From a virus: 52,628 bases of DNA. Positions 28,423-36,729 of the stretch are shown here, piece by piece. A model generated the notes under the pieces. It ran no database searches. It was not told the DNA's origin and was given only the letters and a program-made list of their open reading frames with translations. The DNA lies in the IMG/VR virus record IMGVR_UViG_3300028840_002598, positions 1 to 52,628 of that record. One strand, 5' to 3'. Numbering within the stretch: position 1 is the first letter of the stretch; every line of letters starts with the position of its first letter. The position numbers and the translations under genes were made by a program.

Positions 28423-28459
28423 GGCCCCCGCTAGATTCACCCTGGCGGGGGCCATTTTT
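28423..28459 (+). terminator. Rho-independent terminator after the recombination genes
   Basis: GGCCCCCGC (28423-28431) pairs with GCGGGGGCC (28445-28453), a perfect nine-base stem with a 13-base loop, followed by ATTTTT. It closes the recombination operon. Confidence 0.88.
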
Positions 28460-28473
28460 ATGGGCGGTTTTAC

Positions 28474-28503
28474 TTGCCTCCGCTTTTACTGTGGTCCTAC
28501 AAT
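28474..28503 (+). promoter_or_regulatory. Sigma-70-type promoter for the modification block
   Basis: TTGCCT (28474-28479) and TACAAT (28498-28503) are separated by 18 bases and lie in an unusually AT-rich stretch directly after a terminator. The first gene starts 43 bases beyond the -10. TACAAT matches TATAAT at five of six positions, TTGCCT matches TTGACA at four. Confidence 0.6.
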
Positions 28504-28545
28504 AATAGTCCGGGCCAAGTTTATTCAGCGACACAGGAGGCAACG

Positions 28546-28812
28546 ATGACACAGAAAAGAACCAGCGATGCAACCCGCGAGGACGTGATCCAGGCGATCG
28601 GCAAGTGCGATGGCATGGGAGTGGAGGCGTTCCTCACCGCGCACGGTTACCGCGCATCCCTCAAGTATCAGCTCCGCTACGGCGGCAAGCTGTATCCGTC
28701 CAAGGCGATCTTGGGCGTGGCGTGCGGCCTCACCGCGCGCCAGTTCTCCGGCGGCGCCGCGCACACGGTCCGCGTTCTCCACGGCCTCGGTTTCGAGGTG
28801 GTGTCACGATGA
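28546..28812 (+). CDS. Small standalone domain resembling the N-terminal head of ScoMcrA-type endonucleases
   Basis: An 88-residue protein with GACACAGGAG six bases upstream. The pattern TREDVIQAIGKCDGMGVEAFLTAHGY, YQLRYGGKLYPSKAILGVACGL and FSGGAAHTVRVLHGLGFEV matches the small domain found at the N-terminus of some modification-dependent HNH endonucleases (ScoMcrA head). Here it is alone, with no nuclease. It overlaps the next gene (ATGA). It may bind DNA or modulate the modifying enzymes, an inference from position. Recognised by memory of the family pattern, not by alignment. Confidence 0.55.
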   Translation: MTQKRTSDATREDVIQAIGKCDGMGVEAFLTAHGYRASLKYQLRYGGKLYPSKAILGVACGLTARQFSGGAAHTVRVLHGLGFEVVSR

Positions 28813-30113
28813 CCGCGCACGGTTTCGACGCCACCGAACTGGTGGAGCTTCTGTCCGGCGTGGACTTCCCGATCCCGGCGCCGGCGGACATCGATCTACC
28901 ACTCGATCCGATCGCCTACTTCGCCAGCGGTTGCCAGCGCGGCGAGGTTGCCGGGTTCGCGGCGATCGGCCATGACGTGGGCGTGGCCGCCGGTTCCGTC
29001 AACGCGGACGTGGAGGGCGAACTGTGCGCGCTCGCCGGAACCGATGTCCAGGCGTTCATTGACTCCGGCGCGTTCGCGGAATTCCGAGCCCAGCTCAAGG
29101 GCAAGTCCGCCCCCGTCAAGTGGGACAAGGTGATCGCGCTTTACAAGCGCGTGGGCGCCGTCCTCGGTGACCAGCTCCACGTGGTGGCGCCGGACGCCAT
29201 CGGGGACCAGGGCGAAACGCTGGCGCGCCTCGAACGCTACGCGGAGGACATGCGCGAACTGGACGCCATGGGCGTGCGCGTCCTCATGCCCGTGCAACGC
29301 GGAACGTTCACCCAGGAGAGTTTCTATCGGCGCTGTGTTGAGGTGCTGGGGTTCGAGCCTATCCCCGCGCTTCCGTGCCGCGCCAGCGCCACCTCCGTGG
29401 AGGAGGCGGAACAGTTTGTGGCCGCCGTCCAGCCTACCGTGATCCACCTCCTCGGCCTTGGGCCGCGTGGGCACAAGGCCAAGCGCTACTTGGCCCGTAT
29501 CGCGGAGGCGTGCGCGTTCACCATGGTGCAAATGGATTCGTGCATCATTGCCGCGCACGCTGGGAAAACGAAAGGGCCGGGCGGCGGCCCCCGTCGCCTC
29601 ACCGCGGCCGCGGGGATCGTCAACGGCATGGCCGAACGCGGCGAACTGTCCTCGGACGTTCAGACCCGCAAGGCGGCCGGCGTGATCCTGGCGCTCCGGG
29701 ACATGGACACCGGCAAGCGCCGCGAACTGATCGAGGAGGCCAAGCGCGCGATCGCCGCGGACGCCAAGATCGTGGACCCGGTGGAGATGCCGGCCGGCGT
29801 CCTCCTGTGGCCGGAGGGACCGGCGTCCGTTGCCCACCAGCACGCTTTCCTTTGCCACCCGGACGGCGAGGAATGCCCGGACGGTTGCGACTGCGCACCG
29901 GACCCGCTCCGGGTGGAGGCGCTCCGCGCGGCCCCGGACCTGTTCGAGAGTTGCGAGAAGTGCGGCGCCGTCCTCCTCCCCGGCCGCGAGGTGTGGCTGG
30001 AACTGGACTCCACCACCGGCAAATGGTGGCCGGAGGGCGCCGTCCCCGATGAGCGCTCCCAGGGCTGTTTCGCGTTCGGCGCGGACTGCGCCCGCAAGGC
30101 GGTGAAGCGATGA
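28809..30113 (+). CDS. DpdA/TGT-like DNA deazapurine transglycosylase (putative)
   Basis: A 434-residue protein coupled by ATGA. Motifs of the tRNA-guanine transglycosylase superfamily as used by phage DpdA enzymes are visible: FIDSGAF (Asp 85; TGT has DSGGF), PDAIGDQ (128-134), MPVQRG (160-165), HLLGLG (213-218), and QMDSC (Asp 243, the nucleophile position like MFDC in TGT). Such enzymes exchange guanine in DNA for a 7-deazaguanine such as preQ0. After residue 345 comes a cysteine-rich tail (CHPDGEECPDGCDC, CEKCG, CFAFGADC) likely binding zinc. No preQ0 synthesis genes are in the genome. The next gene is a C5 methyltransferase, overlapping by four bases. Confidence 0.7.
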   Translation: MTAHGFDATELVELLSGVDFPIPAPADIDLPLDPIAYFASGCQRGEVAGFAAIGHDVGVAAGSVNADVEGELCALAGTDVQAFIDSGAFAEFRAQLKGKSAPVKWDKVIALYKRVGAVLGDQLHVVAPDAIGDQGETLARLERYAEDMRELDAMGVRVLMPVQRGTFTQESFYRRCVEVLGFEPIPALPCRASATSVEEAEQFVAAVQPTVIHLLGLGPRGHKAKRYLARIAEACAFTMVQMDSCIIAAHAGKTKGPGGGPRRLTAAAGIVNGMAERGELSSDVQTRKAAGVILALRDMDTGKRRELIEEAKRAIAADAKIVDPVEMPAGVLLWPEGPASVAHQHAFLCHPDGEECPDGCDCAPDPLRVEALRAAPDLFESCEKCGAVLLPGREVWLELDSTTGKWWPEGAVPDERSQGCFAFGADCARKAVKR

Positions 30114-31021
30114 TCCGCGCGGTCGACCTGTTCGCCGGCTGGGGCGGTTTCACGCAAGGCGCGCAGGACGCCGGCGTCGACGTGGTGTGGGCGGCGAATC
30201 ATTGGCCGCTTGCGGTTCACGTCCACAGCACGAACCACCCGGGCGCCGTCCACGAATGCCAGGATCTCCAGCAAGCGGACTGGACAGCGCTCCCCGCGTT
30301 CGATCTCCTCCTCGCCTCGCCGGCGTGCCAGGGCCACAGCACGGCCTCCCAGCCGAAGCGCCGGCGCTACCATGACGCCCTCCGCGCAACGGCGTGGGCG
30401 GTGGTTGACTGCGCGGACGCCACGGAGCCCTCCGCTATCATCGTGGAGAACGTGCCCAGCTTTCGCAACTGGCGGTTGTTCCCGCTGTGGTGCGAGGCCC
30501 TCCAGCTCCTCGGCTATCACGTCCAGGACATGGAGTTGACGGCGAGCCACCACGGCGTCCCCCAGCGGCGCCGGCGCCTGTTCATTGTCGCCACGCGCCG
30601 CCAGTGTTCCCTCAAGCTCCCCAGCTCCTCCGTGGAGCCCGCGTTCGGTCCGTGCATCGACTGGGACGTGGACGGATGGCGGCCCGTCACGGCCGCCTCA
30701 ACGGGCGCACGCAAGCGCATCGCCAAGGGCCGCGCCAACCACGGCGCGCGATTCCTCACCCAGCACGTGAGCAACCACCCGGGCGTCCCCCTCGATCAGC
30801 CGATCCGGACCGTGACCACGAAAGATCAGTGGGCGGTGGTGGACGGCGATCGCTATCGCCCGCTCACCATGCGCGAGCTGGCGCGCGGAATGGGGTTCCC
30901 GGAGTCCTACGTGTGGCCGGGCGATCTCCGGCGCCGGGACGTTGTGCAAGGACTGGGGAACGCCGTATGTCCGCCCGTCGCCCGCGACCTGATCACCGCC
31001 GTGTCCTCCGAGGTGCATTGA
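30110..31021 (+). CDS. DNA (cytosine-5)-methyltransferase
   Basis: A 303-residue protein. Motif I is VDLFAGWGGFTQG (residues 4-16), the catalytic loop LLASPACQGHS has Cys 73, motif VI is VENVPSF (Glu 113), and motif VIII is GVPQRRRRLFIV. C-terminal residues include RPLTMRELARGMGFPE and QGLGNAVCPPVA, the last conserved motifs. The residue before the catalytic Cys is Ala where PCQ is usual. It is a full-length single-chain enzyme that would methylate cytosine in phage or host DNA to evade or alter restriction. Its target sequence cannot be read. Confidence 0.88.
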   Translation: MIRAVDLFAGWGGFTQGAQDAGVDVVWAANHWPLAVHVHSTNHPGAVHECQDLQQADWTALPAFDLLLASPACQGHSTASQPKRRRYHDALRATAWAVVDCADATEPSAIIVENVPSFRNWRLFPLWCEALQLLGYHVQDMELTASHHGVPQRRRRLFIVATRRQCSLKLPSSSVEPAFGPCIDWDVDGWRPVTAASTGARKRIAKGRANHGARFLTQHVSNHPGVPLDQPIRTVTTKDQWAVVDGDRYRPLTMRELARGMGFPESYVWPGDLRRRDVVQGLGNAVCPPVARDLITAVSSEVH

Positions 31022-31326
31022 TGCGCGCCAGGGATGCCGTGGGCCGCAAGATCGTGGCGCTCGAACAGCGCCGCACCATGACCACCGGCGGCCCGGTGTG
31101 GGAGCTGGAGGCGATCGTCCTGGACAACGGGACGCGCCTCTATGCGATGGCGCACGAACACCCGAGCGGTGACGGCTACCCGGTGGAGCTGTGCGTTTCC
31201 AAGGCGCCGCGTTGCAACGATTGCAGGCGCGGCGGCGCCTGGTTCATGATCGAATACCCGGGCGCACCCGTGACCGTGTGCCAGCGTTGCTACCACAAGC
31301 GCGCCGGCATGGAGCCGAACCGATGA
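31021..31326 (+). CDS. Small zinc-knuckle protein
   Basis: A 101-residue protein overlapping the methyltransferase stop (TGATG). Residues 66-93 carry CNDCRRGG and VCQRCYHKR, two CxxC pairs. N-terminal half is beta-rich (GGPVWELEAIVLDNGTRLYAM). It probably binds zinc and possibly nucleic acid. It is the last gene of the modification block by coupling. Confidence 0.65.
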   Translation: MRARDAVGRKIVALEQRRTMTTGGPVWELEAIVLDNGTRLYAMAHEHPSGDGYPVELCVSKAPRCNDCRRGGAWFMIEYPGAPVTVCQRCYHKRAGMEPNR

Positions 31327-33749: not shown

Positions 33750-34402
33750 TGGCGAAGCGCACAGGAGCGGGCGGCCCGGTGAAGCTCGCGCCGGTTCTGC
33801 GATCGATCGCGAGGACGTGGGAGGAACGCGATCAGGAGATTGTGGCGGACCGCGAGGAGCGCGAGCGCCGCGAGGAGCGCGAGCGCGCGAAGCGATGGCG
33901 CAACCGCGTGGTAATGGGAGGCGCTCCTCCGCGGAGGCTTGAGGAGGCGCTGGTGGCGGACTCCTCGCCGGCGATCGATGCCGTGGGCAAGTGGACGCCG
34001 GAGCGGAATATCCTGGTTCTAGCCGGGCCGGTAGGCGTAGGCAAAACCGTGGCGGCCGTGCGGTGGCTCCTCGAACGCGAGTCCGGCTCCCCGCTGTTCG
34101 TGCGCGCTCCTGAATTCGAGGCCCGCGGCCGCTACGATCACGAATTCCGCGCGCTGTGGAAGCGTGCCACGGCCATGGTGCTGGACGATCTGGGCGTGGA
34201 ATACGCGGACGCCCGCGGCAACCTGGTGGCGAACCTGGACGAATTGGTGGACTACTACAGCGGGCGCCACGCCGGCCTGGTTATCACCACGAACCTAACG
34301 GACAAGGCGTTCCGCGAACGCTATGGCGAGCGCATCGCATCGCGCGTCCATGCGTTCGGCAACTGGCGCAACGTGCGAGGGCCGGACCGGAGGCGATCGT
34401 GA
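33749..34402 (+). CDS. DnaC-like helicase loader ATPase
   Basis: A 217-residue protein whose ATG overlaps the initiator TAA by one base. Walker A is GPVGVGKT (about 92-99), Walker B is AMVLDDLGVE (about 145-154), and sensor residues follow in YSGRHAGLVITTNLTDKAFRERYGERIASRV. Matches the DnaC/IstB AAA+ group. N-terminal 50 residues are charged helices. It would load the host replicative helicase at the origin. Confidence 0.85.
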   Translation: MAKRTGAGGPVKLAPVLRSIARTWEERDQEIVADREERERREERERAKRWRNRVVMGGAPPRRLEEALVADSSPAIDAVGKWTPERNILVLAGPVGVGKTVAAVRWLLERESGSPLFVRAPEFEARGRYDHEFRALWKRATAMVLDDLGVEYADARGNLVANLDELVDYYSGRHAGLVITTNLTDKAFRERYGERIASRVHAFGNWRNVRGPDRRRS

Positions 34403-35265
34403 TCGTTCGAGGTGACTCCCAGAAGCTCCTCCGCAAGCTCCGCGAAGGATCGGTCGACCACGCGATCGCCGATCCACCCTACTCGGATCACGTTCACAAG
34501 TGCGGCCGCCGTGGCTGTACCGGCTACACGGAGCCCACGCGGCCAGGAGCAACCCGCGCACAGTTCAATCGCACGCGCGATCTTGGTTTCGATGCGCTCA
34601 CCGAGGATCTCCGGGCGTTCGTGGCGCGCGAACTGGTCCGCGTTGTGCGCCGGTGGATCCTGGTGTTCACCGATCACGAGGGCGGCGAGGGGTGGAAACA
34701 GGACATCGTGAAAGCGGGCGGCGAATTCGTCCGGTTCGGCGTGTGGCACAAGCTGGGCGCCGCGCCCCAGTTCACCGGTGATCGGCCAGGCGCAGGCCAT
34801 GAGGTGATCGTGATCGCCCACGCGCCGCGGCCCAAGGGCGTGCGACTCCGCTGGAACGGCGGCGGCCGTCATGCGTTCTGGGAATTCCCGATCGTCCTGA
34901 ACCGCTCCGGCCAGGACCCGCGCCTCCACACCACACAGAAACCACTCCCCCTCATGGAAGCGCTGATCAAGGACTTTACCGATCCCGGGGAATCGGTCCT
35001 GGATCCGTTCGCCGGCTCCGGCACCACCGCCGCGGCCGCCAAGCGCCTGGGGCGCAACGCCCTGGGGTTCGAGGTGGATCCGAACTATGCGCGCAAGGCA
35101 CAGGAACGGCTGGAGGCCACGTCCTATCAGGGCGATCTGTTCGCGAGTCACCCGGCCAAGGCCCCCAAGGCGGACCAGCTCGCGCTTGACATCGGCGCAA
35201 CGCCTCCAGCTCGCGGAGGCGAACCGGCCAGCGTGGGAGCGCCAGCGGCGAGCGAGGCGGAATAG
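34399..35265 (+). CDS. DNA methyltransferase, beta class, N6-adenine type
   Basis: A 288-residue protein from GTG, coupled by GTGA. Motif IV is ADPPYSD (DPPY at 25-28), and motif I, FAGSGTT at 204-210, comes after it, followed by GRNALGFEVDPNYARKA. This order defines the beta class. DPPY favours N6-adenine over N4-cytosine. Between them lies the target recognition region. C-terminal 45 residues are Ala/Pro-rich. A candidate for methylating the abundant GATC sites, untested. Confidence 0.82.
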   Translation: MIVRGDSQKLLRKLREGSVDHAIADPPYSDHVHKCGRRGCTGYTEPTRPGATRAQFNRTRDLGFDALTEDLRAFVARELVRVVRRWILVFTDHEGGEGWKQDIVKAGGEFVRFGVWHKLGAAPQFTGDRPGAGHEVIVIAHAPRPKGVRLRWNGGGRHAFWEFPIVLNRSGQDPRLHTTQKPLPLMEALIKDFTDPGESVLDPFAGSGTTAAAAKRLGRNALGFEVDPNYARKAQERLEATSYQGDLFASHPAKAPKADQLALDIGATPPARGGEPASVGAPAASEAE

Positions 35266-36080: not shown

Positions 36081-36343
36081 TGGCCGATCAGCAAAGCAAG
36101 TGCCGGAGCTGTGGCGCGATGATCGTGTGGTGCAAGCTGGTGAGCGCGAACAACCCCACCGGCAAGCCCCACCCGCTGGACGCCGTGCCCACGTTCGATG
36201 GCACGATCGAACGCAAGCGCGACAAGCTGTCCTCCGACTATTACGGGCGCGTGGTCCCGAAGCGCGAGCGCGCCGGCGTTCGCTTGTACACCTCGCACTT
36301 TGCCACGTGCCCGAACGCGGGCGCGCACAGGAGGCGGCAATGA
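36077..36343 (+). CDS. Small zinc-ribbon protein
   Basis: An 88-residue protein. ATG 36077 overlaps the previous TGA; a second in-frame ATG lies directly after at 36080. CRSCGAMIVWC near the N-terminus and HFATCPNAGAHRRR at the C-terminus could bind one zinc ion. It contains SANNPTGKPHPLDAVPT, a pattern common in small phage zinc ribbons of unknown role. Confidence 0.6.
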   Translation: MMADQQSKCRSCGAMIVWCKLVSANNPTGKPHPLDAVPTFDGTIERKRDKLSSDYYGRVVPKRERAGVRLYTSHFATCPNAGAHRRRQ

Positions 36344-36729
36344 TTCCCAGCAAGCGAGTGATCTACATGGCGCACCCGGTATCGGGGGACGTGGAGGCGA
36401 ACCTGGCGCGCGCGCGCCGGTGGTTGCTGTGGATCTACAGGGAACACCCGGACACGGCCGTGGTGTGCAACTGGATCCTGGACTGTGAGATCCTGGACGA
36501 TAGCAACCCGGACGATCGCTCCATGGGCCTCCGGCATGACCTGGCCATCATTGAGCGCGTCGACGCTGTGTGGCTTGTGGGCGGCCGCGTGTCCGAGGGT
36601 ATGCAAGCGGAGGCCGATCACGCGGCAACCGTGGGCGTCGACGTGGTCGACTGTACCTACCTGGGAACGGAACCTCCGGCCGTCATGCCACCCGGCCAGG
36701 ACCCGGACGATCCGGACTTCAAACCGTGA
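36340..36729 (+). CDS. Nucleoside 2-deoxyribosyltransferase-like protein (DUF4406-type)
   Basis: A 129-residue protein coupled by ATGA. Begins KRVIYMAHPVSGDVEANLARARRWLLWI, then IERVDAVWLVGGRVSEGMQAEADHAATVGVDVV, the Rossmann-like plan of nucleoside deoxyribosyltransferases and relatives. Family members swap bases on deoxyribose or hydrolyse modified nucleotides. A link to DNA base modification is tempting but unproven. Confidence 0.65.
   Translation: MIPSKRVIYMAHPVSGDVEANLARARRWLLWIYREHPDTAVVCNWILDCEILDDSNPDDRSMGLRHDLAIIERVDAVWLVGGRVSEGMQAEADHAATVGVDVVDCTYLGTEPPAVMPPGQDPDDPDFKP

Follow-up and report, generated by a model that had tools for sequence, protein, structure and literature searches.

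How might a phage exchange guanines in its DNA for a modified base that it does not appear to make, and why would the enzyme be encoded next to a cytosine methyltransferase? These questions are raised by one block of genes in the DNA analysed here (hereafter the window), a virus record of 52,628 bases that also carries genes for a RecE-like exonuclease, a DnaC-like loader, RusA, terminase, portal and head-morphogenesis proteins. An earlier note on this DNA described the block as a three-gene unit joined by ATGA overlaps behind its own terminator and promoter, encoding a ScoMcrA-head-like protein, a protein resembling DpdA and tRNA-guanine transglycosylase (TGT), and a C5 methyltransferase. All three open reading frames, the overlaps at both joints (28546-28812/28809-30113/30110-31021), the hairpin and the promoter-like site were confirmed (Table 1). 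The ORF of the head gene opens at 28474, and an AGGAGG ribosome site lies 5′ of its ATG. The block comprises at least four genes, because the zinc-ribbon-like ORF at 31021-31326 is joined to the methyltransferase gene by TGATG; Pfam, NCBIfam and PHROG family searches returned no match for its product. Further downstream, the same phage encodes a second DNA methyltransferase, of the N6/N4 type (34399-35265; PF01555, E 2.3e-26), and a nucleoside 2-deoxyribosyltransferase-like protein (36340-36729; phrog_355, DUF7768), the latter possibly a link to base supply.

Table 1. Features of the modification locus, with positions in the window
Feature	Position	Strand	Basis or remark
Intrinsic terminator-like hairpin, GGCCCCCGC...GCGGGGGCC ATTTTTAT	28423..28453	+	closes upstream gene; 12 pairs, 10 GC
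Promoter-like site TTGCCT-18-TACAAT	28474..28503	+	consensus match only, 9/12; 0.2 expected from shuffles
Stand-alone ScoMcrA head domain, 88 aa	28546..28812	+	profile match to 5zmm
DpdA/TGT-superfamily protein, 434 aa	28809..30113	+	AlphaFold2 models, VIA-align, hhalign
Codon of Asp85	29061..29063	+	DSGAF motif, end of barrel strand 3 (E82-85)
Codon of Asp129	29193..29195	+	PDxIGDQ motif, after strand 4 (E123-126)
Codon of Asp243	29535..29537	+	QMDSC motif, strand 8 (E239-245)
C5-cytosine DNA methyltransferase, 303 aa	30110..31021	+	PF00145 and TIGR00675
Zinc-ribbon-like ORF, 101 aa (CNDC...CQRC)	31021..31326	+	TGATG joint to methyltransferase

The second gene of the block encodes a protein without any match in Pfam or NCBIfam, and the weak Pfam matches to Phosphatase, Nbs1_C and CdsD_C were discarded as chance. 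Its match to phrog_887, annotated as a phage ‘queuine tRNA-ribosyltransferase’, is not significant (E 0.04), while its relatives match that family with E values down to 1e-5. In a pairwise search of 50,697 phage records at E 1e-5, the protein found no match, phage DpdA included; used alone as a query against genome contigs, it found nothing, and sequence searches of solved structures with either the protein or the family profile gave chance matches only. The relatives were recovered with family-wide patterns after the single-protein searches had come up empty, by a route that led from a similar 52 kb phage (L001) and plasmid homologues to small family alignments; a nine-member alignment was too divergent for scanning. 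The family search yielded 75 viral and 20 bacterial contigs, and one HMM detects a single domain of 250-270 aa in 107 of 108 loci. Members occur in phage contigs and in plasmids of Pseudomonas, Shewanella, Cupriavidus, Alteromonas and others, where nearly all are annotated as hypothetical or LPD1 proteins. On a Geoalkalibacter plasmid (L004, 4989-6259), two overlapping ORFs together make up one member, through either a frameshift or a true split, and on an Azonexus plasmid (L006, 1-4978) a member adjoins a PRTRC gene cluster.

All the motifs that the earlier note had read as TGT landmarks (FIDSGAF, PDAIGDQ, MPVQRG, HLLGLG and QMDSC) were found in the window protein. Across 91 unique domains, S40, G41, D85, S86, G87, P128, D129, H213 and G216 are invariant. 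Of the two aspartates named by position in the note, Asp85 is thus kept in 91 of 91 relatives, as is Asp129, and Asp243 in 90 of 91; Q163 is conserved in 88%. The dN/dS of 0.20 for the DpdA-like domain against its nearest relative indicates purifying selection. In hhalign, the family profile aligned with seven phage DpdA sequences (CAjan and others) with a probability of 96 and E 4.8e-9, compared with a probability of 0.2 for an unrelated control alignment. The family is a distinct branch which, judged by sequence, appears nearer to phage DpdA than to the tRNA TGTs. The profile comparison with bacterial TGT itself was not significant, using a thin TGT alignment against which phage DpdA also scored weakly; membership in the DpdA/TGT superfamily therefore rests on the similarity to the DpdA profile together with the fold.

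That fold was seen in AlphaFold2 models of the full-length protein and of the isolated domain (the latter with a mean pLDDT of 91), with a core pLDDT above 90. Both are TGT-type (beta/alpha)8 barrels of eight strands, in which the ends of strands 3 to 8 carry D85, D129, Q163, P189, H213/G216 and D243. For Asp85 and Asp243, these are the C-terminal ends of strands 3 and 8, where TGT has Asp102 and Asp280; neither of the structural outcomes that the earlier note had named as refuting, no TGT-fold match or a misplaced Asp85 or Asp243, was thus observed. The best 13 Foldseek matches against the PDB are all TGT structures, and among the matches listed by VIA-align, 50 of 50 are TGT or DpdA. The best structural match is DpdA of the bacterial Dpd system, a DNA preQ0 insertase (7ui4; Z 14.8-15.0, rmsd 3.3-3.4 over 191-195 residues, 16% identity), though it is tied at a Z of about 15 with the archaeal (archaeosine) TGTs 1iq8 and 1j2b. 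By strand order and motif, we take D85, D129, Q163 and D243 to be the counterparts of TGT Asp102, Asp156, Gln203 and Asp280, respectively. In TGT, Asp280 is the nucleophile, Asp102 the acid/base, and Asp156 and Gln203 recognise the base. The family forms a branch of the DpdA/TGT superfamily that is new and for the most part unannotated; its members stand alone or within large polyvalent-type proteins.

The small protein encoded upstream was likewise identified through its relatives, with which it forms a profile that matches residues 5-95 of ScoMcrA (5zmm) at E 9.2e-16, in agreement with the head-like character first proposed for it. These residues make up the ‘head’ domain, whose function was described as unknown in the structure paper (PMC6224610). 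ScoMcrA and the phage protein share this head; however, here it is found either on its own or joined to a base-exchange enzyme, and the SBD (sulfur-binding), SRA and HNH domains of ScoMcrA are absent from the 88-aa protein, which is too short for them. In six distinct viral relatives (L012, L015, L016, L017, L020 and L024), the head is fused N-terminally to the DpdA-like domain, and in the tree the head-bearing members form one group that holds both split and fused forms. It is therefore well supported that the head protein and the DpdA-like enzyme act jointly.

The third product is a C5-cytosine methyltransferase, as had been proposed, with a PF00145 match of E 2.1e-44 (152.7 bits against a cut-off of 22), a TIGR00675 match above cut-off, and the methyltransferase motifs FAGWGG, SPACQ, ENV, QRRRR and GNAVCPP intact. 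Its place beside the DpdA-like gene might have no functional meaning, the two being unrelated early genes on one transcript, which would be compatible with any reading of the enzyme. Overlapping genes are frequent in phages, and the nearest relative, L001 (76% identity), keeps the head and DpdA-like genes and lacks both the methyltransferase and the fourth gene, with no C5-methylase match anywhere in its 52 kb record. The methyltransferase is therefore not essential, and its status as an obligatory partner was ruled out. The DpdA-like protein of L001 (7989-9941) also carries a long insertion in its C-terminal half, giving 650 aa compared with 434. However, several other loci argue against a purely incidental neighbourhood. 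L042 repeats the gene order of the window, directly adjacent and with a methyltransferase that is 67% identical; a single 1178-aa frame in L043 (4561-8094) contains a C5 methylase, the DpdA-like domain and a Mom-like stretch; a 4200-aa frame in L069 (28-12627) contains LPD5, LPD1, ART-PolyVal, a C5 methylase, the DpdA-like domain and DUF7178; and L031 has both the C5 methylase and the DpdA-like domain. The L043 polypeptide would combine as many as three domains for DNA modification. In 10 of the 49 viral records with the DpdA-like domain, a C5-methylase match is located no more than 2 kb from it, compared with 1.9 expected from random placement of the domain in the same records, some of which are related (P about 5e-6); seven of the ten matches are strong and three are weak or partial (L022, L046 and L052). 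On the tree, there are about ten changes of linkage state, and the linkage has therefore arisen repeatedly. With these same-frame fusions and the repeated linkage, a mere sharing of one transcript seems to us somewhat unlikely.

Where the base would come from is the next question. Neither FolE nor QueD was found in any of the 49 viral records with the domain, and QueC gave a single match, weak and partial, which led us to reject the idea that these phages have a deazaguanine pathway of their own. Family searches of the window record, which may be incomplete, were negative for FolE, QueD and QueC, as the earlier note had remarked of folE, queD and queC. Overall, the earlier interpretation is supported in part: it held for the fold, the head, the methyltransferase and the missing FolE, QueD and QueC, whereas DNA as the substrate, a 7-deazaguanine as the base and the combination of purine exchange with cytosine methylation are proposals. 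On the bacterial side, QueC is present in 15 of 15 searched genomes with a relative and TGT in 4 of 4 examined; control genomes have QueC in 12 of 14 cases, and because most bacteria have QueC, its presence in these hosts shows only that supply by the host is possible. There is precedent for a DpdA that lacks synthesis genes: 76 such phages were listed in 2019 (PMC6884629). Two of this kind were tested, of which Salmonella phage 7-11 showed low-level modification and Mycobacterium phage Orion was unmodified (PMC6884629). The window branch resembles these two in having a transglycosylase without preQ0 synthesis genes; however, they fall in known DpdA clusters, whereas the window branch has no pairwise match to them.

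The lack of synthesis genes in nearly all 49 records would also be expected if a different base were handled, i.e., if plain guanine or another purine analogue were inserted or swapped, or if a base modified by the host were removed or exchanged as a counter-defence. Many members are part of large proteins of the polyvalent type that also contain LPD and ART domains, which is compatible with such a role, as polyvalent proteins have been proposed to act at entry (PMC5512222) and to be ‘injected’ with the DNA (PMC7824862). Of the 94 distinct members, 35 belong to ORFs that reach at least 1000 aa and 50 to proteins no longer than 500 aa; at 434 aa, the window copy is no very large multidomain (polyvalent) protein. 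A word search of the 2017 survey of polyvalent proteins found no mention of TGT or queuine (PMC5512222). A weak phosphoribosyltransferase match in one member, the 4200-aa frame of L069, points in the same direction. However, the branch retains the base-recognition positions of TGT, Asp156 and Gln203, in the form of D129 and Q163, and a guanine-type base is therefore indicated. A second argument against a different base comes from DUF6884, which occurs in frame with the DpdA-like domain in L029 (3874-7122), L030/L037 and L041. This domain was related to YaaA (PF03883) by Pfam's curators (PMC11701544), and DpdC, which turns preQ0 in DNA into the amide, belongs to the YaaA family PF03883 (PMC12839542). 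By analogy, the DUF6884 fusions may parallel the DpdA-DpdC pair, a likeness that is suggestive only, and a DNA-binding role for DUF6884 is equally possible. YaaA PF03883 itself was rejected as a regular partner, having given one sub-threshold match only. Taken with the conserved base-recognition residues, we consider insertion of another base, or removal of a host-made one, unlikely.

The substrate might instead be tRNA, with a phage TGT altering the tRNA modification of the host, since the fold is common to the tRNA-guanine transglycosylases. This we regard as distinctly improbable, as the branch has no Pfam match to the bacterial TGT family PF01702 and its profile is nearer to phage DpdA. 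In addition, the zinc site of bacterial TGT (CxCxxC...H) is not conserved, and the family alignment has no conserved Cys; the Cys-rich part of the window protein is its C-terminal tail, the barrel domain comprising residues 29-295. The fusion partners and neighbours are, moreover, DNA-acting: the ScoMcrA head, the C5 methyltransferase, the Mom-like stretch (L043) and DUF6884. A protein as the target or binding partner, as for Cap10 of type IV CBASS, is very improbable: Foldseek does list Cap10 (9ntn) as a match and TGT folds have been reused in this way (PMC11996544), but no QueC/Cap9-like partner was found in the record, the catalytic-type Asp residues are all kept and the neighbours are DNA-modification genes.

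The reading that we prefer, and hold to be probable on balance, is that the DpdA-like protein is a DNA-guanine transglycosylase using a 7-deazaguanine supplied by the host, with the head helping it onto DNA and the methylase adding a second mark. In the following scheme, we infer that DNA is the substrate, which base is used, what the head does and that the marks serve protection. The head domain, as a separate protein or as an N-terminal domain, would deliver the enzyme to DNA or position it there. Asp243 would then attack the deoxyribose that carries a flipped-out guanine in the phage DNA, and guanine would leave; by analogy with TGT, Asp85 would serve as the acid/base, and Asp129 and Gln163 would read the guanine-type ring. 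In place of guanine, preQ0, preQ1 or queuine from the queuosine pathway of the host would be inserted without ATP. The coupled C5 methyltransferase would place the second mark on cytosine, and progeny DNA would carry two modifications that may protect it against restriction.

Compared with known systems, such a transglycosylase would be closest to phage DpdA (Escherichia phages CAjan and 9g, the Mycobacterium Rosebush group; phrog_887), with which it shares DSGAF, (L/P)DxIGD, xxG, HxxG and DS/DA in the same order. However, DpdA of the CAjan type has His where the window branch has Gln163, and several phage DpdA genes are flanked by ParB-like and Que genes, in contrast to the head or methyltransferase of the window branch, for which preQ0 genes were not found. 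The bacterial Dpd system differs in that no DpdB or DpdC gene was identified beside the window gene. In the BREX-related BRC systems with TGT and GNAT (PMC12839542), a TGT homologue is likewise tied to DNA-modifying domains, as is the DpdA-like domain in L043 with its Mom-like stretch; the likeness is one of domain make-up, and the BRC systems are bacterial defence loci, whereas the window branch is found in phages and plasmids.

What the locus reveals is an unannotated DpdA-like branch with new partners. Because the family has no match in either library, counts of DNA-modifying phages and plasmids based on Pfam or NCBIfam would miss it. A bolder proposal, which we consider rather doubtful, is that it represents a widespread, unrecognised branch of DNA-guanine transglycosylases, through which phages and plasmids would edit guanines using a host-derived base, in many cases with cytosine methylation built into the same polypeptide, and polyvalent copies delivered with the DNA would mark it right after entry, before phage gene expression. 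The fusion of the head to a base-exchange enzyme gives a new clue to the role of the head, and the repeated joining of transglycosylase and C5-methyltransferase domains raises the question of why they are combined. The branch also makes approachable the question of how a phage may mark guanines with a 7-deazaguanine made by its host, without a pathway of its own.
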